Assembly (NCBI GenBank): GCA_900315935.1 | Contig: ONBB01000005.1 | Span: 1 to 64,000 of the forward strand | Direction: 5' to 3' | DNA length: 64,000 bases | From: an uncultured Bacteroidales bacterium | GTDB lineage: Bacteria; Bacteroidota; Bacteroidia; Bacteroidales; P3 | Shown: in pieces, positions 1 through 52,041 of the stretch | Position numbering within the stretch: the first letter of the stretch is position 1 | Layout: each line of letters starts with the position of its first letter | The notes under the pieces: model-generated | Database searches by the model: none | What the model was told of the DNA's origin: nothing | Seen by the model: only the letters and a program-made list of their open reading frames with translations | Made by a program: the position numbers and the translations under genes

Positions 1-2235
1 CTTGGTGGGGTACTGCTTGAGGAGCAGCGTCCAGTTGAGGTCGGCATAGAAGACGGGCTGCTTGATGTCCATCTTCTTCAGCGTCTCGCGGCCGATGCGT
101 CCGAGGGTGCCCAGCAGCTTCTTGCTGTCGCGCTGGATGATGTCGAGGCCCTCGGCAAAGAACTTGTACTGCGTCGGCACCATCTCCACGCGACCCATAT
201 TGACACGCATGCGCTGCAGAAGGGTCAACACGTATGACTTGAGGTAGTAGAAGTCGACCTCGGCGGGCTTCATCTTCCAGCTCTCGGGCGTCATGTTGCC
301 GGTCATGAAGATGCTGACGTGCTCGGTCTCGTTGAATCTTTTTGTGACAGGTATTTCGGAATAATCGGATTTTTCGGAGTATTCTGAATTTTTCTGATAG
401 CTCCTGCCGAACTCATACAGCTTCTGGTCGAGGATGCGGTAGTTGATATTGCGAGCGATGCACTCGAGTCCGCTGTAGAGCAGCGTCTGGCGCATGATGT
501 TGAGCTCTTTGGAGAGGGGGTTGATGATTTGCACACAACGGTCGGCGGGGAAGTCGGGGTTCTCCTCATAATACTCGCCCTTAGTCAGCGAATTGTTCAT
601 TATCTCGGAGAAACCGTTGTCGGTGAGATAGTCGGCGGCGGCATTCCTGAGCTTGGCGGGGTTGGGCTTGCGGCCGTAGGAGAGGCAGCTGTTGAGGCGC
701 TCGTCGAAGGTGATGTTGTTGTAGCCGTAGATGCGCATGATTTCCTCCACGATGTCGCACTCGCGCGTTACGTCGGCCTTGCAGGTGGGAACGCGGAGGG
801 ACATGCCGTCGGCGGTCTCGTTCACAATCTCGATGTCGAGCGAGGTCAGCGCGGTGCGCACGGCCTCCAGCGGGATGTCCTGGCCGATGAGGTCGAACAT
901 GCGGCGGAAGTTGACCTCCACCGTCGGGCGCTCTATCTTGTTGGGATAGATGTCAATCATCTGGCCGCATATCTCGCCTCCAGCAAGCTCCTGAATGAGC
1001 TTCACAGCGCGGCGCAGGGCCCACACGGTGATGTTGGGGTCGCAGGTGCGCTCGTAGCGGTAGCTGGCGTCGGTCTTCAGCGTGTGGCGCTGACTGGTCT
1101 TGCGGATGCTCACGGGGTTGAAGAAGGCGCACTCGAGGAACACATTGGTGGTCTCCATGGTAACACCGCTCTTCAGACCACCGAAGACACCGGCGATGCA
1201 CATGCCTTCCTGCTCATTGCATATCATAAGGTCGCGGGCATCGAGCGTGCGCTCCACACCGTCGAGGGTGACGAACTTGGTGCCCTGCGGCAGGCGCTTC
1301 ACGATGACATGGCCACCGGCAATCTGGTCGGCGTCGAAGGCGTGCAGCGGCTGCCCCACCTCCATCATGACGAAGTTGGTGATGTCGACGATATTGTTGA
1401 TGGGACGCAGGCCCACGGTGCGCAGGCGGTTCTGCAGCCACTCGGGGCTCTCCCCTACCTTCACGTTGCGCAGCGTGATGCCGGTATAGCGAGGGCAGAG
1501 GTCGGGATCTTCGACGGAGACTCTAATTGCGTTATCGTGTGATTGCGTTATTGTGTTAGAGGCTGGCGCGTCAGCACTAACGCATTTACACGTTGACGCA
1601 TTAACGCATTCAGCAATCTCCGGCCATTTAATCTTCAGCTGTTTTCCTTCACGGGTATTTCTTACAGCCACCACATCGCGGGCCACGCCGATGTGCGAGA
1701 TGGCGTCCATGCGGTTGGCGGTGATGGCCACCTCGAGCAGGCAGTCGTCCTTCACGTGGAAGTACTCCTTGGCGGGCATTCCCACGGGGGCGTCGTCGGG
1801 CAGCACCATGATGCCGGCGTGGTCGGTGCCGAGCTGCAGCTCGTCGGCAGCGCAGAGCATACCCTCGCTGACGGCGCCGCGCAGCTTGCCTTTCTTAATC
1901 TCGTAGTATTCGGTGTCCGAGGTGTAGATCTTGGTGCCTATCTGGGCGCACACCACCTTCTGGCCGGCGGCCACGTTGGGAGCACCGCAGACAATGTTCA
2001 GCGGCGTGCCCGAGCCCACGTCGACGGTGGTCAGGTGCAGGTGGTCGCTGTCGGGGTGCGGCTCGCAGGTGAGCACCTGGGCAATCACAACATGCTCCAG
2101 ACCGCCTTTGATGGTCTCCACCTTCTCCATGCTGTCCACCTCCAAGCCGGAGAAAGTCAGCAGGTCATCCAGTTCCTGAGGAGTCATATCCTCAATATCC
2201 ACATACTCTTTAAGCCAATCGAAAGAAATATTCAT
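1..2235 (-). CDS. pheT: Phenylalanyl-tRNA synthetase beta subunit, C-terminus cut by window edge
   Basis: Charges tRNA-Phe as part of the (alpha-beta)2 enzyme in the cytosol. The frame is open from the ATG at 2235 to base 1, giving 745 codons of the usual 800 or so; the anticodon-binding end lies outside. The N-terminus (MNISFDWLKEYVD) is typical, and a B3/B4-type stretch (GLRPINNIVDITNFVM, then GQPLHAFD) follows. Two insertions interrupt the normal family sequence. Residues about 208-237 come from a palindromic element (VNAS...ITQSHDNAI) and about 611-628 from 9-bp repeats (SEYSEKSDYSE). Both keep the frame, so the gene is probably functional. No clear promoter box is seen upstream. Confidence 0.95.
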   Translation of the reverse strand, partial: MNISFDWLKEYVDIEDMTPQELDDLLTFSGLEVDSMEKVETIKGGLEHVVIAQVLTCEPHPDSDHLHLTTVDVGSGTPLNIVCGAPNVAAGQKVVCAQIGTKIYTSDTEYYEIKKGKLRGAVSEGMLCAADELQLGTDHAGIMVLPDDAPVGMPAKEYFHVKDDCLLEVAITANRMDAISHIGVARDVVAVRNTREGKQLKIKWPEIAECVNASTCKCVSADAPASNTITQSHDNAIRVSVEDPDLCPRYTGITLRNVKVGESPEWLQNRLRTVGLRPINNIVDITNFVMMEVGQPLHAFDADQIAGGHVIVKRLPQGTKFVTLDGVERTLDARDLMICNEQEGMCIAGVFGGLKSGVTMETTNVFLECAFFNPVSIRKTSQRHTLKTDASYRYERTCDPNITVWALRRAVKLIQELAGGEICGQMIDIYPNKIERPTVEVNFRRMFDLIGQDIPLEAVRTALTSLDIEIVNETADGMSLRVPTCKADVTRECDIVEEIMRIYGYNNITFDERLNSCLSYGRKPNPAKLRNAAADYLTDNGFSEIMNNSLTKGEYYEENPDFPADRCVQIINPLSKELNIMRQTLLYSGLECIARNINYRILDQKLYEFGRSYQKNSEYSEKSDYSEIPVTKRFNETEHVSIFMTGNMTPESWKMKPAEVDFYYLKSYVLTLLQRMRVNMGRVEMVPTQYKFFAEGLDIIQRDSKKLLGTLGRIGRETLKKMDIKQPVFYADLNWTLLLKQYPTK
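352..401. repeat. 9-bp repeat array inside pheT
   Basis: About five degenerate units of the form TCGGAATAT / TCTGAATTT lie in the coding region and encode Ser-Glu-Tyr/Lys triplets. The 9-bp period keeps the reading frame. The same unit family occurs in the nucleoside phosphorylase (11390) and ygiQ (26468). Confidence 0.8.
1526..1613. repeat. In-frame palindromic element, copy 1 (in pheT)
   Basis: An element with GCGTTA/TAACGC-rich arms around a core CTGGCGCG-TCAGCACTAACGC. On the coding strand it encodes ECVNAS...VSADAPAS..ITQSHDNAI. Copies at 5744 and 8494 encode clearly related peptides in the same frame and the same orientation relative to their genes. Confidence 0.8.
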
Positions 2236-2317
2236 TTTTTATATTGTTTATCACCAAATACTTGTCAAAATAGTTATGCATCTGACAATGGTCGAAGTGT
2301 CAGTCATCGGTTCTTCC

Positions 2318-2647
2318 CTAAACCATCGAAAAACGTAGTTCATATTTATCACTAAAGGAATCGTTTTCTCCGCAGAATGAAAAATTATTGCCAATCAACT
2401 CTCCATCCTTAAAATCATATTCAGAGCACTCCACATCTAAAATGTTTTTGTCAATTTCTTTAGCCATCTTGTTGAGCTCAGTTTCTATCTCTCTAATAAC
2501 CTGCTCACTTAAAGGTTTTCTCGACACCAAGTCAACGGATAATTCGTTAGTGTCAATTTTATCAACTTCAATGTTGAGTTCATAATATTTATGTATTCCA
2601 CTGCTTTCTATTATCTTCTTGAGTTTTTTGGCTGATTCTTCTTTCAT
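2318..2647 (-). CDS. AT-rich hypothetical protein
   Basis: A 109-residue, charged, soluble-looking protein with no signal peptide or membrane segment. The N-terminal half is rich in Lys, Glu and Ile and looks helical. I recognise no family. The coding sequence is far more AT-rich than pheT and glnS on either side and uses AT-ending codons, which suggests acquisition from elsewhere. It sits alone on the minus strand with short gaps to both neighbours and no visible partner such as a toxin. The ATG at 2647 is the only reasonable start. Confidence 0.7.
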   Translation of the reverse strand: MKEESAKKLKKIIESSGIHKYYELNIEVDKIDTNELSVDLVSRKPLSEQVIREIETELNKMAKEIDKNILDVECSEYDFKDGELIGNNFSFCGENDSFSDKYELRFSMV

Positions 2648-2731
2648 AAAGTATTTGTGTTTAAGTTATTTTATCTTACAAAATGGTTGCATTTGTTATT
2701 TGGACAATTCTATATTTGAAATTCCATCAGT

Positions 2732-4427
<1,696 letters not shown>

Positions 4428-4480
4428 AAGTGGCTGATTATTCAAATTATAGATACAATATATATAATAAATCGGAACTA

Positions 4481-4488
4481 CAAAGATA
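4481..4488 (-). promoter_or_regulatory. -7 box of glnS
   Basis: TATCTTTG on the minus strand, matching the Bacteroidota TAnnTTTG box, about 55 bp before the glnS ATG. Confidence 0.65.
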
Positions 4489-4639
4489 CGACTTTTTCGG
4501 CAACGCCGGGCGAAAATCTTGCAATTTTCCACCAACACACTGAATACCAGCAAACTGCACAACAGCGAAACAAACCGCGAAAAAACTGGAAAAAAGTCAA
4601 AAAAACGTCCAAAATCGCCCATCCACAACAGGCTGATTG

Positions 4640-4735
4640 TCAGCACTCTGTTACGCTCCCCTTTTTCTCCCCTTTTTACCCTCTTCTTCCTTTCTTGGGA
4701 GGCGGAGGGGAGATGGGTGGCGAGTGGCAGGATTT
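4640..4735. repeat. Pyrimidine-rich intergenic element, copy 1
   Basis: A stretch of CCCCTTTTTCTCC / CCCTCTTCTTCC runs followed by a purine-rich GGGAGGCGGAGGGG tract. Similar tracts occur at 46230-46315 and 59500-59590, each preceded by a CAGGCTG- or GCCTGTCA-like sequence. The similarity could partly reflect low complexity. Confidence 0.45.
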
Positions 4736-4751
4736 TCATTTTGCGGAATGA

Positions 4752-4880
4752 GAAAAAATTACCGGCCGGGGCAATTTCCACATCGGGCGCATCACCATGC
4801 AGCGCAAAGGCGGCGACAACGGGCGAGACACCGCCAAGATGCTTCAATTCAAGATTAATCCAGCCGAGCTGTTCGATTGA
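4752..4880 (+). pseudogene. C-terminal remnant of a type II restriction endonuclease
   Basis: After an in-frame TGA, 42 codons read [20 protein letters not shown]... and end ...[12 protein letters not shown] before a stop. The pattern FHxGRITxQRKGGDxGRxTAxxLQFKINPxxLF is what I know from the C-terminal ends of several type II restriction endonucleases. No start codon, catalytic part or methyltransferase gene is visible nearby, so this would be the tail of a decayed restriction gene. Upstream is the pyrimidine-rich repeat, which may mark the deletion edge. Confidence 0.5.
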
Positions 4881-4939
4881 CATAAGAGATTGATTCTGAA
4901 CTGCTAAAAAATAATTTCCCACACATGGAAAAAAGTTTG

Positions 4940-4947
4940 TACCTTTG
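4940..4947 (+). promoter_or_regulatory. -7 box close to the start codon of the 4952 lipoprotein gene
   Basis: TACCTTTG ends only four bases before the ATG at 4952, so the transcript is probably leaderless or nearly so. Confidence 0.55.
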
Positions 4948-4951
4948 CACC

Positions 4952-5551
4952 ATGAAAAAGATAACCTTAGCATTCGTATTGGCAGGCTCTATCTTGTTGA
5001 GTTCCTGCGACATCCTGACCCAATTGGCCAGCCAGGTGCAGAGTGTGGCCAACCTCGCCAACTGCGAGTTCAACCTCAAAAACGTCTCCAACGTGAGCGT
5101 GGCGGGCGTCAATGTAAAAAATCTTACGCAGGGCAACCTGACTGCGACCGACGTGGTGAAGCTGGTGGCAGCCTACCAGACCAAGCAGGTGCCGCTGGCG
5201 ATGGACGTGAACGTCAACGTGAAGAACCCCACCACCCAGCAGGCCGCCCTGACGGCGATGGACTGGATACTGGCCATCGACGGCAGCGACGTGGCCAACG
5301 GTGTGAGCAACAAGGGCTTCACCGTCAAACCCTCAACCACCACCACCGTGCCGCTGGGCGTCAACACCGACCTGGGCAACCTCTTCTCGAAGAAGGGGGT
5401 GGAGAGCCTGAAGAACTTCGCCTCGAGCTTCACCAGCGAGGGTGTCTCCTCGAAGGTGGGCCTGCGCATCCGCCCGCAGCTGTCGGTCGGCACCACCCAG
5501 GTGCCCTTCCCCAACTACATCACGCTGGAGAAGAAGACCGGAAAAAGCTAA
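4952..5551 (+). CDS. Lipoprotein with LEA14-like features
   Basis: A 199-residue envelope lipoprotein. Residues 1-19 form a signal peptide ending in the lipobox LLSSC, with Cys19 as the lipidated residue. The mature part is rich in Val, Asn and Thr in beta-strand patterns ([19 protein letters not shown], later [18 protein letters not shown]), like LEA14/WHy-type folds, but I cannot assign a function. The start at 4952 is chosen because it gives the complete signal peptide; the ATG at 4925 lies upstream of the promoter box. It stands alone, convergent with the operon to its right. Confidence 0.85.
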
Positions 5552-5554
5552 AAG

Positions 5555-6742
5555 TCAAGCATTAAAATCTTGTGCCAGCCGCAGGAAGAGTCTTGCGGCT
5601 GGTTCCATTATGTCGTCGGGGAAATCGTAGTCGGGGTGATGCAGTTCGGGGTGCTCCTCCCCTGCCCCGATGCCGAACATGGCACCTGGGAAGTGCTGCA
5701 GATACTCGGCGAAGTCCTCGCTCCAGCGGAAAGGTTCCTCTTTAATAATTGCGTTAATGTGTGATTGCGTAATTGCGTTAGTATGTGATTGCGTAATGGC
5801 GTTAGTGTGTGATTGCGTAATGGCGTTAGTGTTTGTCGCGCCAGCACTAACGCATTGACGCATTAGCGCATTGACGCATTCCTCGTGGTTCTCGGTGGCG
5901 CGGAAAGGCTCCACGAGCGAGCGGCTGACTTTCAAGCCATAACGAGCGGACACCTCATCTACTACTTGATTGGCTTCGGAGAGCAGTTTTTCCATCTCGC
6001 TGTTGGTAAAGGCCCGGAGGGTGAACATCACCTCGCCGTGCCCGGCGGAGGTGCCGAAAGCCGGCTGCCCGATGCGTACACATATCAAGGTCGACTGCCT
6101 AAATTCCCCATCCCGTCCGTTAAATCCGTTGAACCTGTTGACAATCTCCGCAAACGCCAAGCCGGGATTTATGCCCATCTCGGGGGTGGAGGCATGTGTC
6201 TCGCGACCGTCGAGGCGGTAGACCACGCCCGTCGAGGCGGCAGCGAAAGTCTTCGGACAGAGTACCACGGTGCCCAGCGGATAGCCGGGAAGGTTGTGCA
6301 ACGCATAGAAAACCTGGATGTTGTACTGCTGCAGGATGCCGCTCTCGAGCACCGCACGGGCACCCTCGCCGGTCTCCTCGGCGGGCTGCCAAAGAAGGAG
6401 GATGTTGATATGTTGATATGCTGATACGTTCCCATCAACCAATTCGGCCAAGCGTAAGAGGATGGTGGTGTGGCCGTCGTGGCCACAGCGGTGGCCGATG
6501 GGCAGGGCATCGGTGTCGGCGCGGAAGGCGATGGTGGGAACGCGGGAATGCGTTAATGTGTCAGTGTGTGAGCCTTTGGCCTCCCAAACCGCAATGACTC
6601 CCCAGCCGCCCACATGGGTGTAAACCTTGTCGGGGTGCAGCCCCTGCAGATGGCGGACTATCATGTCGTGGGCAAACTGCTCGTTGCCGGCAGTTTGCGG
6701 ATGCTCATGGAGCTGATGACGTATCTCTTTGTAGTCAGTCAT
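5555..6742 (-). CDS. M20-family amidohydrolase/peptidase
   Basis: A 395-residue metal-dependent hydrolase of the M20/IAL-amidohydrolase type, probably removing acyl or amide groups from amino acids. Metal-site motifs are visible: FRADTDALPI, GHRCGHDGHT, QPAEETGEGA and YALHNLPG. The catalytic core is continuous, but a peptide of about 45 residues near residue 290-335 (ECVNALMRQ..VSAG, then NAITQSHT three times) comes from a palindromic repeat with 24-bp tandem units. A smaller insert of the same type (GSHTDTLTHS) lies near residue 60. The ATG at 6742 overlaps the murD2 stop (ATGA), so translation is probably coupled to the murL-murD2 operon. Confidence 0.85.
   Translation of the reverse strand: MTDYKEIRHQLHEHPQTAGNEQFAHDMIVRHLQGLHPDKVYTHVGGWGVIAVWEAKGSHTDTLTHSRVPTIAFRADTDALPIGHRCGHDGHTTILLRLAELVDGNVSAYQHINILLLWQPAEETGEGARAVLESGILQQYNIQVFYALHNLPGYPLGTVVLCPKTFAAASTGVVYRLDGRETHASTPEMGINPGLAFAEIVNRFNGFNGRDGEFRQSTLICVRIGQPAFGTSAGHGEVMFTLRAFTNSEMEKLLSEANQVVDEVSARYGLKVSRSLVEPFRATENHEECVNALMRQCVSAGATNTNAITQSHTNAITQSHTNAITQSHINAIIKEEPFRWSEDFAEYLQHFPGAMFGIGAGEEHPELHHPDYDFPDDIMEPAARLFLRLAQDFNA
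5744..5881. repeat. In-frame palindromic element, copy 2, with 24-bp tandem units
   Basis: Three near-identical 24-bp units (GCGTTAGTGTGTGATTGCGTAATG) are followed by the core CGCGCCAGCACTAACGC and ACGCATT repeats. GCGTTAGTG and CACTAACGC form a perfect 9-bp inverted repeat around the core. All of it is coding within the M20 gene. Confidence 0.85.
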
Positions 6743-8007
6743 AGTTTCATTATCTGTTCGGTGTAGAAATCGCCGCGGTGCTCGAAATTCTTGAAGGCGT
6801 CGTAGCTGGCGGCGGCCGGCGAAAGCAGTACGGTGCCCCCCTGCGGTGTATGGGCGGCGCACCAAGGGACTATCTTGGTGTAGTCGTTCTCTACAAGTGA
6901 GGAGTGAGGAGTGAGGAGTGAGGAGTGTATTCTTCTACCGGCTTGGCCTACAAAGACGAGATTCTGTATCGGATGTTCCCGCAGGAAGTCGACCAGCGGC
7001 GTGTAGTCGATGCCACGGTCGAAGCCGCCGAGGATGAGCGTGTCTACGCGGCCGAGGGCGCGCACAGCGTTGATGGTGGCCTCGGGGATGGTGGAGATGC
7101 TGTCGTTGTACCACGTAATCCCATGATATACACCCACCTTCTCCAATCGGTGGCGAAGACCCTTGAAATTGGAAATTGGAAATTGGAAATTGAAAATGGG
7201 CTGACACGCGACGAGGGATGCCACGCGGCAGGCCACCAGGGCGTTGCTGCGGTTGTGCTCACCAGCCAAAGGACAGGATTTCAGCAGCTCATGTTCCTCG
7301 TCCGAAATGTCGTTGAGAGTATAGGGATGCATCGCACTTTCAATTTTCAATTTTAAATTTTCAATTAGAATGCGCAGCTCCTCATTGTCGGTGCAGTAGA
7401 AGAAATGGTCGCCCGCCTGCTGCTTGAGGGCAATCTGCATCTTGGCCATCTTGTAGCCCATATAGCTTTCATAATGATCGAGGTGCTCCTGGAAGAGGTT
7501 TAGCAGCACGGAGATATGGGGTGCCCGATAGATATTCTCCAACTGGTGGCAGGAGAGCTCGGCCACAACGATACTGTCCTCGCGGAGGTCGTCCAAAATA
7601 TCGAACAGCGGGATGCCTATGTTGCCGGCCAAGATGCTGCCTGGCAGCAGATGGTGTATCAGGCTGGCGGTGGTGGACTTGCCCTTGGTGCCGGTAACGC
7701 CGATGGTCATGTCGCCGTAGACCTGCAAAAAGAGGTCGGTCAACGACGTTAATTGAAAATTGAAAATTGAAAATTGAAAAGTAGGGATGCCTGGCGACTT
7801 GATGACCATGTCAAACGGCCAGTCTTCGCGCCACTCTCCACTCTCCACTTTCCACTTTCCACTTTCCACCTGCGTGGCAACGCTGTATTGCACCTCTGGC
7901 ACAAGGCGCTGGATAAGGCGCTCGGCGCTCTTGCCCTCGCGGCCGTAGCCGGCAATCAGTATCCTGCGCCCTGCGAGCAGGGCCTTCAGCTGTTCTTCTC
8001 TGTACAT
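6739..8007 (-). CDS. murD2: UDP-N-acetylmuramoyl-L-alanine--glutamate ligase, MurD2-type
   Basis: Adds glutamate to UDP-MurNAc-L-Ala in the cytosol. A Mur-ligase P-loop (GVTGTKGKSTT, residues 103-113) and the C-terminal domain motifs (HRLEKVGVYHGITWYNDS, LILGGFDRGIDY, LLSPAAASYDAFKNFEHRG) are present. At 422 residues it matches family length. Its partner is an upstream MurL-like gene whose end overlaps this start by 22 bp, which argues for the MurD2 variant that uses L-Glu rather than D-Glu. Five short peptides inside the protein come from 7-bp repeat arrays: GKWKVES, FQFSIFNFQ, ENLKLKIES, IFNFQFPISNF and SSLLTPHSSL. The gene is still open and motif-complete. The MurD versus MurD2 choice rests on context. 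Confidence 0.85.
   Translation of the reverse strand: MYREEQLKALLAGRRILIAGYGREGKSAERLIQRLVPEVQYSVATQVESGKWKVESGEWREDWPFDMVIKSPGIPTFQFSIFNFQLTSLTDLFLQVYGDMTIGVTGTKGKSTTASLIHHLLPGSILAGNIGIPLFDILDDLREDSIVVAELSCHQLENIYRAPHISVLLNLFQEHLDHYESYMGYKMAKMQIALKQQAGDHFFYCTDNEELRILIENLKLKIESAMHPYTLNDISDEEHELLKSCPLAGEHNRSNALVACRVASLVACQPIFNFQFPISNFKGLRHRLEKVGVYHGITWYNDSISTIPEATINAVRALGRVDTLILGGFDRGIDYTPLVDFLREHPIQNLVFVGQAGRRIHSSLLTPHSSLVENDYTKIVPWCAAHTPQGGTVLLSPAAASYDAFKNFEHRGDFYTEQIMKL
6895..6933. repeat. 7-bp repeat array 1 in murD2
   Basis: About five units of GAGGAGT, coding SSLLTPHSSL on the minus strand near the C-terminal domain. Confidence 0.85.
7166..7197. repeat. 7-bp repeat array 2 in murD2
   Basis: Four units of GAAATTG, coding IFNFQFPISNF on the minus strand. 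Confidence 0.85.
7339..7370. repeat. 7-bp repeat array 3 in murD2
   Basis: Degenerate TTTCAAT units coding ENLKLKIE. This is the only coding array of the AAAATTG family in the orientation that could contain TGA, and it is read in a frame that avoids it. Confidence 0.65.
7750..7782. repeat. 7-bp repeat array 4 in murD2
   Basis: Four units of GAAAATT, coding FQFSIFNFQL on the minus strand. Confidence 0.85.
7833..7870. repeat. 7-bp repeat array 5 in murD2
   Basis: Units of CTCCACT / TTTCCAC, coding VESGKWKVESGEW on the minus strand. Confidence 0.85.
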
Positions 8008-9479
8008 GCGGCTTGAAGGATTTGGCGTTCTTCTTCAGTGAGGTTTCCTAGATTTTCTAGCTCTTCTAGACTATCTAGATTTTCTAGACTATCTAGTTTT
8101 TCTAGATTATCTATATCTACTAGCTCCAGCAGGGCAGGCTGCCCGGCTTGATACCACCGCCGCACAGCCATCGCCAAAGCCTGGCGCACCTCGCTGACGG
8201 TGCCCACGCACTCGAATGGCTTCGTTTCCGCCTCGCCGATAAGCTGCTCGAACTCATGCCGCAGCGTCAGGTCGTCGAGCATCGCCTTGCCGAAAATCCG
8301 GTTAAGTCTTACCGGCTCTATGAACGGCGACAATATGATATAAGCGAAGAGGCACTTGGCACAGTGGCCGCACCAGATATCCTGCTTGCTGCCCACGTTG
8401 CACGAGCGGAACACATCGTGGTACTGCGTGAAGCGGCTGAAGAGCATGGCTATCTGCAGCTCGGATAGTGGGCGGAGAAAAGAGAAGTAATTGAATGCGT
8501 CATCGTGTGATTGCGTTAATGTGTCCGTGGCTGGCGCAGCATCACTAACGCCATCACGCATTAACGCATTAACGCAATACTCCCGGAAGTCATCCTCGAA
8601 CTCCAGGCTTTTCGAGTACTGGTGGTTGACGCTGGTGCTCCAAATATTCTCGTTCGCTCCACTTCGGTCGCGCACGAGAACAGTTGGCTCGTTGGCCGAA
8701 CTCTCGTTGCTCAAAGCCACATTGGGAACACCGCTCAAAGCAGCGGCCAGGCGCGTATAGAAAGCCAGCATCGCACTGAACGGCGTGTGGCCGTTGAGGT
8801 AGCCTTCACCGTTGAGCTTTAGCAGCGTGGGGTCTATCGTGCGTCGTATCACCAGCACCTCCTCCATCGGGAACCCCGCCACGCGCGCACACTCCACCGT
8901 AGCACCGCGGGGATTCATAATCAACGGGCGTATGGACTTGCCCGCACGGCGCAGCAGCTCCAGCGTAACCACCGAGTCCTTGCCGCCGCCCACAGGGACA
9001 AGATAAGAATTGAAAAATGAAAAATGAAAATTGAAATTTTCATCTGCGGCAGCCTCACTTTCCACTTTCCACTTTCCACTTTCCACTTGCAGAAAGCCAT
9101 CTTGGCCTTCAGCAATGCCGTTAGTGTAGAAAAACTCGCCCAGGCCGTGCCAGTAGAGCTTTCTCCAGAAGGCCGTCTGCGCCTCCGTGAGGCTGCCGCA
9201 CGACACCAGCACCCTCGGCGGGCAGGCGCATTTCCAGTAGCTGACCAGCTCCACCATCCCGATGTCGAACACCAGCCTGTCCAACACCTCGCGCGGAAGG
9301 TCGAAATCAAGGAAATGGCGACGCTCCACCAACGCCGTCGGGCGGAAGCGGACATCCCCCATGCGGAAGTCGAAAGCCAGGTGAAGTCCCTCGGCATCAG
9401 CAACATATTCATAGCCCGCATACTCGAAAATCGGGTAGCGGCGACGCAAGTCATAATATCTCTCTGTGCGGTTTTCCAT
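7986..9479 (-). CDS. murL: UDP-MurNAc-L-Ala-L-Glu epimerase, MurL-like
   Basis: Likely inverts the L-Glu residue of UDP-MurNAc-L-Ala-L-Glu at the cost of ATP. An N-terminal region (to about residue 120, ending KLYWHGLGEFFYTNGI) leads to an ATP-pyrophosphatase-like loop PVGGGKDS (residues 162-169), and further conserved-looking stretches follow (LIMNPRGATVECARVAGF, NVALSNESSANEPTV, WCGHCAKC). These agree with what I recall of MurL from Xanthomonas. Its place directly before a MurD-type ligase is the classical murL-murD2 pairing. Repeat-derived segments are GKWKVES plus NFNFHFSFFN (7-bp arrays), VNALMRDGVSDAAPATDTLTQSHDD (palindromic element), and a Leu-Glu-Asn-rich C-terminus from 9-bp units. 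The ATG at 9479 is preferred over a GTG at 9488. Confidence 0.75.
   Translation of the reverse strand: MENRTERYYDLRRRYPIFEYAGYEYVADAEGLHLAFDFRMGDVRFRPTALVERRHFLDFDLPREVLDRLVFDIGMVELVSYWKCACPPRVLVSCGSLTEAQTAFWRKLYWHGLGEFFYTNGIAEGQDGFLQVESGKWKVESEAAADENFNFHFSFFNSYLVPVGGGKDSVVTLELLRRAGKSIRPLIMNPRGATVECARVAGFPMEEVLVIRRTIDPTLLKLNGEGYLNGHTPFSAMLAFYTRLAAALSGVPNVALSNESSANEPTVLVRDRSGANENIWSTSVNHQYSKSLEFEDDFREYCVNALMRDGVSDAAPATDTLTQSHDDAFNYFSFLRPLSELQIAMLFSRFTQYHDVFRSCNVGSKQDIWCGHCAKCLFAYIILSPFIEPVRLNRIFGKAMLDDLTLRHEFEQLIGEAETKPFECVGTVSEVRQALAMAVRRWYQAGQPALLELVDIDNLEKLDSLENLDSLEELENLGNLTEEERQILQAACTEKNS
8045..8125. repeat. 9-bp TCTAGA-type array in murL
   Basis: About nine degenerate units of TTCTAGATT encode a Leu-Glu/Asp-Asn/Ser/Lys-rich tail (LEKLDSLENLDSLEELEN) near the MurL C-terminus. 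The 9-bp unit preserves frame. Confidence 0.85.
8494..8579. repeat. In-frame palindromic element, copy 3 (in murL)
   Basis: TTGCGTTAATG and CATTAACGCAA form a perfect 11-bp inverted repeat. The core CTGGCGCAGCATCACTAACGC matches copies 1 and 2, and the encoded peptide VNALMRDGVSD...TLTQSH matches that of copy 2. Confidence 0.85.
9008..9092. repeat. Two adjacent 7-bp arrays in murL
   Basis: GAAAAAT/GAAAATT units (9008-9040) and TTTCCAC units (9055-9090) lie side by side just before the PVGGGKDS loop in the coding direction, encoding FNFHFSFFN and ESGKWKVES. Confidence 0.85.
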
Positions 9480-9519
9480 ACGCACCACCTAACGCCGAAC
9501 TGCCTGAAATATTGCTTTT

Positions 9520-10719: not shown

Positions 10720-11616
10720 ATGAAAGCCAGCGAACTGGTACTGGCACCCGACGGAACCCTGTACCACATACGTCTACAAAGCAGCACCTTGGCCGACAAG
10801 GTGCTGCTTGTCGGTGACCCCGCGCGGGTCAACATGTTCAAAGACATCTTCGAACAGATAGAATTCGAAAGCGACAACCGCGAAATCCACGCCCTCACCG
10901 GCACCTACCACGGCACACGCCTCACCGCCCTCAGCACCGGCATGGGATGCGACAACATCGACATCGTCCTCACCGAACTCGACGCCGCCCTGAAAGTGGA
11001 AAACGGGAAATGGAGAGAAGAAAGCGAGAGGCACCTCCAGCTCGTCCGCATCGGTACCAGCGGCTCCCTGCAGGAAGACATCGACTGCGGCAGCCACGTC
11101 GCCGCCGCCTGCGCCGTGGGGCTCGACGGCCTGATGAACTACTACCGCGAATGGCAACCGCCACTGCCCGAAATGGAGCGCGCCCTCGACGCACACCTCC
11201 AGCTGCCACCCACCCTCGCACACCCCTACTGCGTGCCCGGCAGCCAACACCTGCTCCAACACATCGGACACGACATGCACCACGGCATCACCGCCACCGC
11301 ACCCGGCTTCTACGGCCCCCAGGGGCGCACCATACGCCTGCACCCCTCCATCGACAACCTAAATGAGAAACTGGCCTCCTTCCGCCTTTCAGAAAAATCT
11401 GAAAAATCTGATTATTCGGAATATTCAGAACTGAAAATCACCAACCTCGAGATGGAGACCTCGGCCATCTACGGCTTTGCCCACCTGCTGGGGCACGAGG
11501 CACTCACCGCATGCCTCATCATCGCCAACCGTCCCCGCGGCACCTTCCTCAACGACTACCACCCACAGATGCGCCAACTGCTCGGCACCGTCGTCGAGCG
11601 ACTAGCCACCTCCTAG
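10720..11616 (+). CDS. udp: Nucleoside phosphorylase, uridine phosphorylase type
   Basis: Cleaves nucleosides with phosphate, probably uridine to uracil and ribose-1-phosphate, for pyrimidine salvage. Family motifs are visible in order: VGDPARVNMF, STGMGCDNIDIVLTEL, VRIGTSGSLQEDI and NLEMETSAIYGF, the last being the nucleoside-binding region. At 298 residues it is a little long because two repeat-derived inserts are present: KVENGKWREESE (7-bp units) and SEKSEKSDYSEYSE (9-bp units). The ATG at 10720 gives the usual N-terminus, 16 bp after the previous gene. The stop codon TAG is also the first base triplet of a dispersed intergenic repeat. Substrate choice among pyrimidine nucleosides is inferred. 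Confidence 0.85.
   Translation: MKASELVLAPDGTLYHIRLQSSTLADKVLLVGDPARVNMFKDIFEQIEFESDNREIHALTGTYHGTRLTALSTGMGCDNIDIVLTELDAALKVENGKWREESERHLQLVRIGTSGSLQEDIDCGSHVAAACAVGLDGLMNYYREWQPPLPEMERALDAHLQLPPTLAHPYCVPGSQHLLQHIGHDMHHGITATAPGFYGPQGRTIRLHPSIDNLNEKLASFRLSEKSEKSDYSEYSELKITNLEMETSAIYGFAHLLGHEALTACLIIANRPRGTFLNDYHPQMRQLLGTVVERLATS
10993..11030. repeat. 7-bp repeat array in udp
   Basis: Degenerate AAAGTGG / GAAATGG units coding KVENGKWREES. Confidence 0.75.
11390..11435. repeat. 9-bp repeat array in udp
   Basis: TCTGAAAAA / TCGGAATAT units coding SEKSEKSDYSEYSE, the same peptide type as in PheT. Confidence 0.85.
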
Positions 11617-11681
11617 GGGAACGGTAGGGGAATGGTAGGGGAATACAAAGGCACTGGAAGGATATGGAAGGATATGGAACG
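11614..11681. repeat. GGGGAA-rich intergenic element, copy 1
   Basis: Tandem TAGGGGAACGG / TAGGGGAATGG units (11 bp) followed by AATACAAAGGCACTGGAAGG and ATATGGAA units. The first TAG is the stop codon of udp. Other copies: 16399, 40890 and 51919. Confidence 0.9.
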
Positions 11682-11700
11682 TTAGATTGAAAACCAAGCG

Positions 11701-16516: not shown

Positions 16517-16650
16517 GGGCAAAAATGGGGCACCGGGCGGGGGGATGCGACTGTGCGGTGGTAGTGCCTCACGGCCAGGTCGAAGATGCCGCGCCCGCCG
16601 AACTCCGCCCGCCCGGCCAGCAGGCGGCGGCGTAGGTTGTGGCCATTTCA
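16517..16650. other. Possible gene remnant
   Basis: On the minus strand one frame reads GHNLRRRLLAGRAEF and GIFDLAVRHYHRTVA, which looks like protein rather than random sequence, but it has no start and ends in the 7-bp array. I cannot assign it; it could be the tail of a gene lost when the MITE-like repeats entered. Confidence 0.25.
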
Positions 16651-16783
16651 GCTCCTCCCCTAAGCTAGGGGAGGTGGACGCGCGCAGCGCGGACGGAGGA
16701 GTGTGAACCGCAAGCCCTTAGGACACACGCCCCCGTCGCCGCCTGCGGCGGCGCCACCCCCTCTAGCTTAGAGGGGGAGTTGA
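16651..16783. mobile_element. MITE-like palindromic repeat, copy A
   Basis: 133 bp with three hairpins: CCTCCCCTA-AGC-TAGGGGAGG at one end, CCCCCTCTA-GCT-TAGAGGGGG at the other, and a GC-rich palindrome (GCCGCCTGCGGCGGC) inside. It is repeated in direct orientation 24 bp further on. No transposase is present. Confidence 0.75.
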
Positions 16784-16807
16784 AGAAACTGAACAAGAAC
16801 CATTTCT

Positions 16808-16940
16808 GCTCCTCCCCTAAGCTAGGGGAGGTGGCCGCGCGAAGCGCGGACGGAGGAGTGTGCACAGCATGCCCTTAGGACACACGCCCCCGTCGCCGCC
16901 TGTGGCGGCGCCACCCCCTCTAGCTTAGAGGGGGAGTTGA
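16808..16940. mobile_element. MITE-like palindromic repeat, copy B
   Basis: Nearly identical to copy A with a few substitutions around 16834-16875. Both copies follow CATTTCWG and end in GTTGA. Confidence 0.75.
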
Positions 16941-40889: not shown

Positions 40890-40962
40890 GTGGAACGGTA
40901 GGGGAATGGTAGGGGAACGGTAGGGGAATACAAAGGCACTGGAAGGATATGGAAGCTTATGG
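40890..40962. repeat. GGGGAA-rich intergenic element, copy 3
   Basis: Three 11-bp GGGGAACGGTA-type units, then AATACAAAGGCACTGGAAGG, ATATGGAA and GCTTATGG. Almost identical to the copy at 51919. Confidence 0.9.
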
Positions 40963-41171
40963 ACCATTAGACACCTTGCCGAGTGCTCAAACCAAACATA
41001 TATAACTCATTTTCAACAAAGTATATAGTATTATGATGGATTATGGCACTCTATCCCTGTATCAATCCCCAACCTGGTCATTCTCATTTTTTTCTTAACG
41101 CGGGCACAATAAATGGGATACGGGGTACGTTATGCAGTGAAACTCAAGTCTAAACAACACCAATAAACATC
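40963..41171. other. Intergenic leader of the metallopeptidase gene
   Basis: AT-rich in the first half; no TAnnTTTG box recognised and no ORF supported. Confidence 0.4.
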
Positions 41172-51918: not shown

Positions 51919-51982
51919 TAGGGGAATGGTAGGGGAACGGTAGGGGAATACAAAGGCACTGGAAGGATATGGAAGCTTATGG
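51919..51982. repeat. GGGGAA-rich intergenic element, copy 4
   Basis: TAGGGGAATGG, TAGGGGAACGG, TAGGGGAATACAAAGGCACTGGAAGG and ATATGGAAGCTTATGG; lies between kamE and atoA. Confidence 0.9.
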
Positions 51983-52041
51983 CACTTTACCCTCTCACTA
52001 GCCCCTATTTTATCCATTATTTCCCATCAATAGACCCCCGA

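Follow-up and report, generated by a model that had tools for sequence, protein, structure and literature searches.

The closest described systems are repeats of several kinds, some of them palindromes that lie within coding DNA. The Rickettsia palindromic elements (RPE), and the coding palindromes of Wolbachia and Methanocaldococcus jannaschii, are described as occurring in frame in unrelated housekeeping genes, encoding a conserved peptide and falling into several families (PMC10969869, PMC2996958). The PARCEL repeats are also presented as coding palindromic DNA, in the form of 25-aa tandem repeats (PMC2996958), and for the coding palindromes of Nematomorpha mitochondria template switching was proposed to keep the arms alike (PMC6649704); the inverted repeats described there are perfect, long and carried by genes of the mitochondrion, unlike the short arrays reported below. 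Within the Bacteroidales, the BrickBuilt MITE of Porphyromonas gingivalis combines inverted ends with tandem repeats (PMC4596501), but according to its description the units are of 23 nt, the copies span 84-991 nt and the location is always intergenic, in contrast to coding repeats. Heptamer repeats are documented in Xanthomonas and Nostoc, and TAACTGA in Beggiatoaceae, Cyanobacteria and five Bacteroidetes (PMC4692102, PMC4679880). They likewise form dispersed short arrays of 7-bp units, but are described as enriched outside coding DNA or as lying mostly between genes, and facing arms with a common core, or turnover of units at fixed protein loops, are not reported in the accounts available to us.

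Here, we followed up a sequence-only reading of one window, i.e., a whole stretch of 64,000 nucleotides from an uncultured Bacteroidales bacterium, whose close relatives are metagenome assemblies from the rumen and gut that bear the name Bacteroidales, with Candidatus Colimorpha among the more distant PheT relatives. That reading held that palindromic elements encode related peptides, in the same frame and orientation, inside three unrelated proteins. All three copies are present at the positions that it gave, on the minus strand, which is the coding strand, within the ORFs of PheT, an M20 amidohydrolase and a MurL-like protein (so named because its score lies under the model cut-off), and the relatedness of the peptides, with their common frame and orientation, was borne out in each. 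The copies and their hosts are as follows:

1..2235, minus strand, pheT, host (TIGR00472, 715 bits); the gene runs off the window
1526..1613, minus strand, insert in pheT, 8-bp-family palindrome encoding the 27-aa peptide ECVNASTCKCVSADAPASNTITQSHDN plus edge
5555..6742, minus strand, M20 amidohydrolase gene, host (PF01546, TIGR01891)
5744..5881, minus strand, insert in the M20 gene, 8-bp family, grown in 24-bp steps
6739..8007, minus strand, murD, host of several 7-bp arrays (TIGR01087, 250.5 bits)
7986..9488, minus strand, murL-like gene, host (NF041275, 229.9 bits, cut-off 700)
8494..8579, minus strand, insert in the murL-like gene, 8-bp-family palindrome

Elsewhere in the window, glnS falls into two frames on the minus strand, 2732-3862 and 3870-4973, owing to a frameshift or else to an error in the sequence.

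Each of the three copies consists of two facing arms of degenerate GCGTTAAT / ATTAACGC units, each arm being in turn a tandem array with a unit of 8 bp (GCGTTAAT); the core between them, as read by eye from the copies, approximates the palindrome GCGTTAGTGCTGGCGCGCCAGCACTAACGC. In the first listed inverted pair of each copy the arms measure 26, 33 and 28 nt and are 79-81% complementary. The suggested modelling of the RNA fold gave hairpins, with z-scores of -2.3, -2.9 and -3.2 for the three window copies and from -2.3 to -6.9 across six copies of the family. Growth of the second copy by 24-bp units, also claimed earlier, agrees with what we found: the M20 insert holds 3.6 such units, and its loop measures 53 aa in the window against 37 aa in genome G057, which corresponds to two steps of 24 bp. 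As for the host proteins, the pheT insert falls opposite a gap when aligned to a solved PheT (7n8y_B) and precedes the B3/4 domain. In a predicted M20 model of modest confidence (pLDDT 73.3; the five models spanned 38.7-73.3), the insert is of low confidence: residues 301-326 have a pLDDT below 50 and lie between a helix (287-296) and a strand (329-333).

The 8-bp family is not limited to the window. A search for further copies in the same genome found the family at 17 distinct places (21 matches, four of them second matches of places already counted). Among the loci examined, 42 matches span the core, and removal of five second matches of places already counted left 37 distinct copies; a 50-mer test had marked 13 of the 42 rows as alike, of which only those five (same place, same genome) were removed, while the other eight represent alleles or independent copies (another gene, genome or position) and were kept. 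Of these full-core copies, 23 lie within frames of at least 150 aa, and all 23 use one strand and one frame, with the peptide pattern CVNALMRxCVSADAPATNTITQSHNNA (for two of them, L113 and L037, the scripted frame call was 1 owing to an indel, but the peptide is the same). The antisense frame is also open in several copies, yet it is unused. Thus, the idea of an element that stays open in one frame held for the coding copies, whereas confinement to coding regions did not, 14 of the 37 copies lying outside long frames.

By our own count, the 23 coding copies occupy about 13 sites: two in PheT, two in MurL-like proteins, two in GH97, and one each in the M20 protein, a Mur ligase, an ABC-F-like ATPase, an alpha-L-rhamnosidase, an amidohydrolase, a periplasmic binding protein and a protein with no Pfam match (the hosts of L107, L104, L106 and L037 were assigned from likeness of the flanking peptides alone). 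Single-arm or odd copies were seen in a CobW protein, an Eco57I-like methylase and a helicase. In the CobW protein (L011:1501-1629), the 8-bp arms stand on both sides of an HHHHHHDDDD run, and the core there is therefore a host-like metal-binding stretch.

The presence of the family among genomes is patchy. Matches occur in 33 of the 59 genomes of the genus, including the window's own (up to 14 candidates scored per genome), and in one of 247 genomes of the order, again the window's own (up to three candidates scored), so that the match numbers per genome are to be read as minimum values. The coding repeats of the 8-bp family are lineage-restricted.

At all three window sites empty alleles were found, and most of the relatives examined carry no such segment in the host protein. 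With further copies also present in the genome, the conditions that the earlier reading set for its own refutation do not hold. Among the 17 genomes of the allele table (the M20 gene of G046 being unreadable), the PheT loop is of 32 aa and contains the 8-bp palindrome in four, i.e., the window's genome, G057, G002 and G004. In G022 it holds another palindromic pair (34 aa), in four genomes a GGAAAGT array (15 aa), in G046 a differing loop of 18 aa and in the remaining seven other loops of 15 aa. Since the loop is of 15 aa whether empty or filled with GGAAAGT, the array here replaces the native loop with no lengthening. In MurL, the 8-bp insert gives a loop of 27 aa in the window and G004; the loop is empty (3 aa) in seven of the 17 genomes and of 6-50 aa, mostly with other arrays, in the remaining eight. 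The M20 insert is found in the window and G057, the native loop being of 26 aa. By eye, the insert-free M20 loop (AAAGCGGCA...TGCCGCTT; G004, G009, G036, G056 and others) forms a small inverted repeat whose arms seem to have changed in pairs, and it is perhaps a decayed older insert. Every genome used is a metagenome assembly, and repeats are prone to misassembly; however, the carriers G057, G002 and G004 come from separate projects, the arrays fit within a single read and the essential genes stay open, which makes an assembly artefact behind the arrays exceedingly improbable.

The 8-bp family is only one of several kinds of array in this genome. In 458 kb (the window plus 394 kb more of the same 2.29 Mb genome) Tandem Repeats Finder detected 53 arrays of period 7, 19 of period 8 and 48 of period 9, whereas a single Markov-shuffled copy gave 0, 1 and 3; the excess of heptamer arrays thus resembles that of the heptamer systems. 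Most arrays are of 25-36 bp with units of 7, 8 or 9 bp, and in many cases two arms face each other across a short core. Besides the three inserts, the genes listed above contain the following arrays:

354..394, minus strand, 9-bp-type array in pheT, NSEYSEKSDYSE loop; relatives have other units or none
6402..6430, minus strand, 8-bp array ATGTTGAT in the M20 gene, site 106
6896..6927, minus strand, 7-bp array at murD site 385; arrays in 14 of 17 genomes, with 8 units
7165..7197, minus strand, 7-bp array at murD site 288
7338..7366, minus strand, 7-bp array at murD site 238
7751..7780, minus strand, 7-bp array TTTTCAA at murD site 100; loop of 11 aa, non-array loops 9-14 aa
7831..7869, minus strand, 7-bp array GGAAAGT at murD site 72, facing the site-100 array
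8044..8123, minus strand, 9-bp array at site 430 of the murL-like gene
9011..9036, minus strand, 7-bp array at site 155 of the murL-like gene, one arm of a facing pair
9056..9088, minus strand, 7-bp array with another unit at site 142 of the murL-like gene, facing the site-155 arm

In the window's genome arrays are also present in SerRS, CoaBC, MltG, HemW and PurL.

The sites of these arrays are fixed while their units change. The same loops of PheT, M20, MurL, MurD and PurL carry different 7-, 8- and 9-bp arrays in different species, and at MurL site 155 we counted 11 units in 11 genomes. Array positions in PheT, M20, MurL and MurD of the 17 genomes form 4, 6, 7 and 8 clusters versus random means of 15.1, 14.3, 19.2 and 19.4 (0 of 2000 simulations each), these counts including a few double entries and PheT site ~695, which is apparently an ordinary conserved GRIGR motif. 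PurL, an added check picked only for having arrays in the window's genome, gave 10 clusters versus 27.1 at random in 16 genomes. Units within an array are near-uniform: at 10 of 11 sites, identity within arrays (0.85-0.95) exceeded that between genomes at the same site (0.54-0.77, best phase), the two being equal (0.88) at PheT212, and at three of the 11 sites arrays match between genomes at least as well as their flanks do. MurD of 21 distant genomes (19 congeners and two of a sister genus; G012 yielded no MurD and was left out) contained no 7- or 8-bp array, and the MurD arrays therefore belong to one subclade. Period-9 stretches in MurD of five of these 21 were discarded as candidates, as they sit at the conserved DYRDY segment and not at the array sites.

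One rival explanation is local slippage on its own, with variable loops gaining arrays by polymerase slippage, independently of any copying between sites, and with units being alike only because the set of stop-free units is limited. The near-uniform units, the fixed sites and the mostly fixed period speak for it, and the 24-bp growth of the M20 insert fits as well. However, both period 7 and period 8 occur across genomes at MurL299, PheT212, M20-288 and M20-106, and both 7 and 9 in PurL, and slippage alone is therefore insufficient for these sites. The facing arms, the replacement of a native loop at unchanged length and the presence of one 8-bp palindrome with its core at many unrelated sites also speak against it, and we consider this explanation unlikely.

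The relation of the arrays to genes was also assessed. By a gene caller that was rough and overlooked true hosts (e.g., the MurD start), 28 of 62 period-7 arrays lay inside called genes, 11 at edges and 23 in intergenic DNA. Units that keep the frame open were inside genes in 31 of 55 cases versus one of 25 for frame-closed units (p 4e-6), a contrast partly built in because gene calling stops at a closed array. The heptamer TTTTCAA, as an array of three units, occurs in 31 of 59 genus genomes and, at the level of the order, in 17 of 247 genomes from 14 of 174 genera, and its copy number correlates weakly with that of the 8-bp family (rho 0.32, p 0.013). By a strict rule, one of 26 TTTTCAA arrays in four other Bacteroidales lineages and one of six here lie inside a long frame; in the TTTTCAA-rich Bacteroidales lineages G275 and G178 (loci L226-L236), none of 17 examined did.

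Other repeats were noted in passing. A compound, intergenic-looking element, (TAGGGGAACGG)n followed by a core containing AATACAAAGGCAC and then (TGGAAGGATA)n, lies at window positions 11614-11690, 40892-40970 and 51919-51985, and a 23-base piece of it is also present in 8 of 287 fetched loci. Positions 16643-16940 hold 1.9 copies of a 157-bp unit (95% alike) with palindromic pieces. REP-like palindromic repeats, e.g., GTAGGGGCGAATCATT and GGAGCCCCGAAGGGGC, were seen at L060:18310-18362, L066:7744-7804 and L064:10717-10978.

The comparison with the RPE, which was made by description and not by sequence, can now be drawn. Insertion in frame into unrelated genes, with empty orthologues of PheT, M20 and MurL, a conserved peptide in a constant frame and a palindromic, hairpin-forming structure are common to both. 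In this respect the likeness proposed earlier stands. The systems differ in phylum, in arms that are here 8-bp tandem arrays, in relatives' loops that hold other 7-, 8- and 9-bp families and in arrays that can replace native residues and whose units change together; the analogy does not extend to the tandem-array arms or to turnover at fixed sites. An RPE-like mobile palindrome, i.e., a discrete 8-bp element moved by some transposase with the other arrays being a separate matter, would account for the peptide that is conserved in full-core copies from about 13 sites, for the hairpin and for the patchy presence in the genus. It is nevertheless rather doubtful. The Y1 transposase (PF01797), the one transposase family searched, does not accompany the repeats as in REP/RAYT systems (rho 0.005 with family copy number, 59 genomes), and four genomes (G014, G042, G050, G057) have at least 14-19 family matches each and zero Y1 genes; for lack of correlation it was rejected as the mover in this genus. 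With respect to MITEs, inverted arms are present and no target-site duplication is visible by eye in the alignments, in which the junctions have diverged. Finally, the same loops are occupied by other array families elsewhere, some of them single arrays, and for that reason the picture of one discrete palindromic element is not supported as stated, while the part of the original claim that concerned in-frame, lineage-restricted hairpin repeats in unrelated proteins is upheld.

Sequence differences between carriers bear on how the inserts reached their sites. The PheT inserts of the window, G057, G002 and G004 are 1-3 of 87 nt apart, with 2-3 of 87 nt between the window and the others. The rest of pheT differs between the window and the other carriers by 11.4-13.3% (21-24% at third codon positions), and non-carriers are equally close (10.5-13.4%). 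In a five-gene tree of 12 genomes the PheT-insert carriers are not a clade, although the window and G004 are sisters there. Single-gene trees, whose support is weak in places, place the MurL-insert carriers as sisters (0.913) and the M20-insert carriers apart. The M20 gene is a mosaic: over residues 207-284 the window is 86-92% identical to the insert-free G009 and 65-78% identical to G057, yet the insert is common to the window and G057. Old inserts inherited only vertically and repeatedly lost, with no need for spread, would agree with the MurL tree, but not with a pheT insert so much less diverged than the third codon positions around it, nor with the M20 tree and mosaic, and we regard this history as highly improbable. 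The pheT data fit interspecies transfer with little flanking DNA, or repeated seeding by a near-same sequence. Downstream of the pheT insert, a recombination tract on one side only was suspected, but it amounted to a few codons once the alignment was read and was dropped from consideration.

The repeat pattern is solid, and from it we infer a mechanism. The explanation that we prefer, with confidence that is about evenly poised, is a lineage-wide class of short-period arrays in tolerant loops of housekeeping proteins, maintained by copying between arrays plus slippage and filtered by reading frame. An occupied site would be overwritten or reseeded from other arrays of the genome or from a relative's allele, by ectopic recombination or by template switching during replication, perhaps aided by the hairpin. 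Slippage would homogenise units inside an array, and selection would purge frame-breaking versions; we propose that it is due to this purging that the 8-bp family keeps one frame and that coding lengths change in steps of 24 bp. On this view, the elements would have no function of their own; they would be non-autonomous and either selfish or neutral.

If units are copied between arrays, they may be shared within a genome. In 99 arrays from 13 sites and 15 genomes, most of the sites being in neighbouring genes (19 of 118 arrays were dropped for overlapping stop-to-stop frames, and the two MurL arms were merged), 23 of 337 same-genome pairs shared a unit versus 12.7 expected in shuffles (p 0.002). 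Without G056 the count was 14 of 317 versus 10.7 expected (p 0.15, not significant), and this weakness is a further point in favour of slippage alone. No copying event was itself observed. In favour of the preferred explanation we count the clustering of array positions, the high identity within arrays, the differing periods at single sites, the PheT loop of unchanged length, the near-identical PheT inserts, the M20 mosaic, the single frame of the coding copies and the sharing of units within genomes. Against it count the dependence of that sharing on G056, the location of most sites in neighbouring genes, the equal identities at PheT212, the three sites at which arrays match between genomes at least as well as their flanks, the weak correlation of TTTTCAA and 8-bp copy numbers, the small share of TTTTCAA arrays inside long frames, the partly built-in frame contrast and the junction result that follows. 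Microhomology at the junctions as a basis for insertion was rejected: at 19 junctions, likeness to the unit was no higher than at random gene places (mean median p 0.51). More tentatively, and with somewhat less than even confidence, the process may amount to a genome-wide rewriting, in which hairpin-forming arrays in fixed loops of many essential proteins are repeatedly overwritten whole by other units or periods, taken from other parts of the genome or from another species, and in which copying at the DNA level, and not point mutation, sets the loop sequence.

In the open-access literature searched we found no description of such coding repeats in Bacteroidales, in accordance with the earlier statement that no counterpart was known there, nor, as far as the accessible accounts extend, a system that joins coding palindromes, several periods, fixed loops and whole-array turnover. 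If the preferred explanation is true, parts of PheT, SerRS, MurD, PurL, CoaBC and MltG would be written by repeat DNA undergoing turnover at fixed loops, and units could switch as whole arrays within strongly selected genes. The lineage affected would be a common rumen lineage, and coding palindromes would extend past the known cases. The empty, occupied and differently occupied alleles would then constitute a natural series for the spread of short repeats in bacteria.
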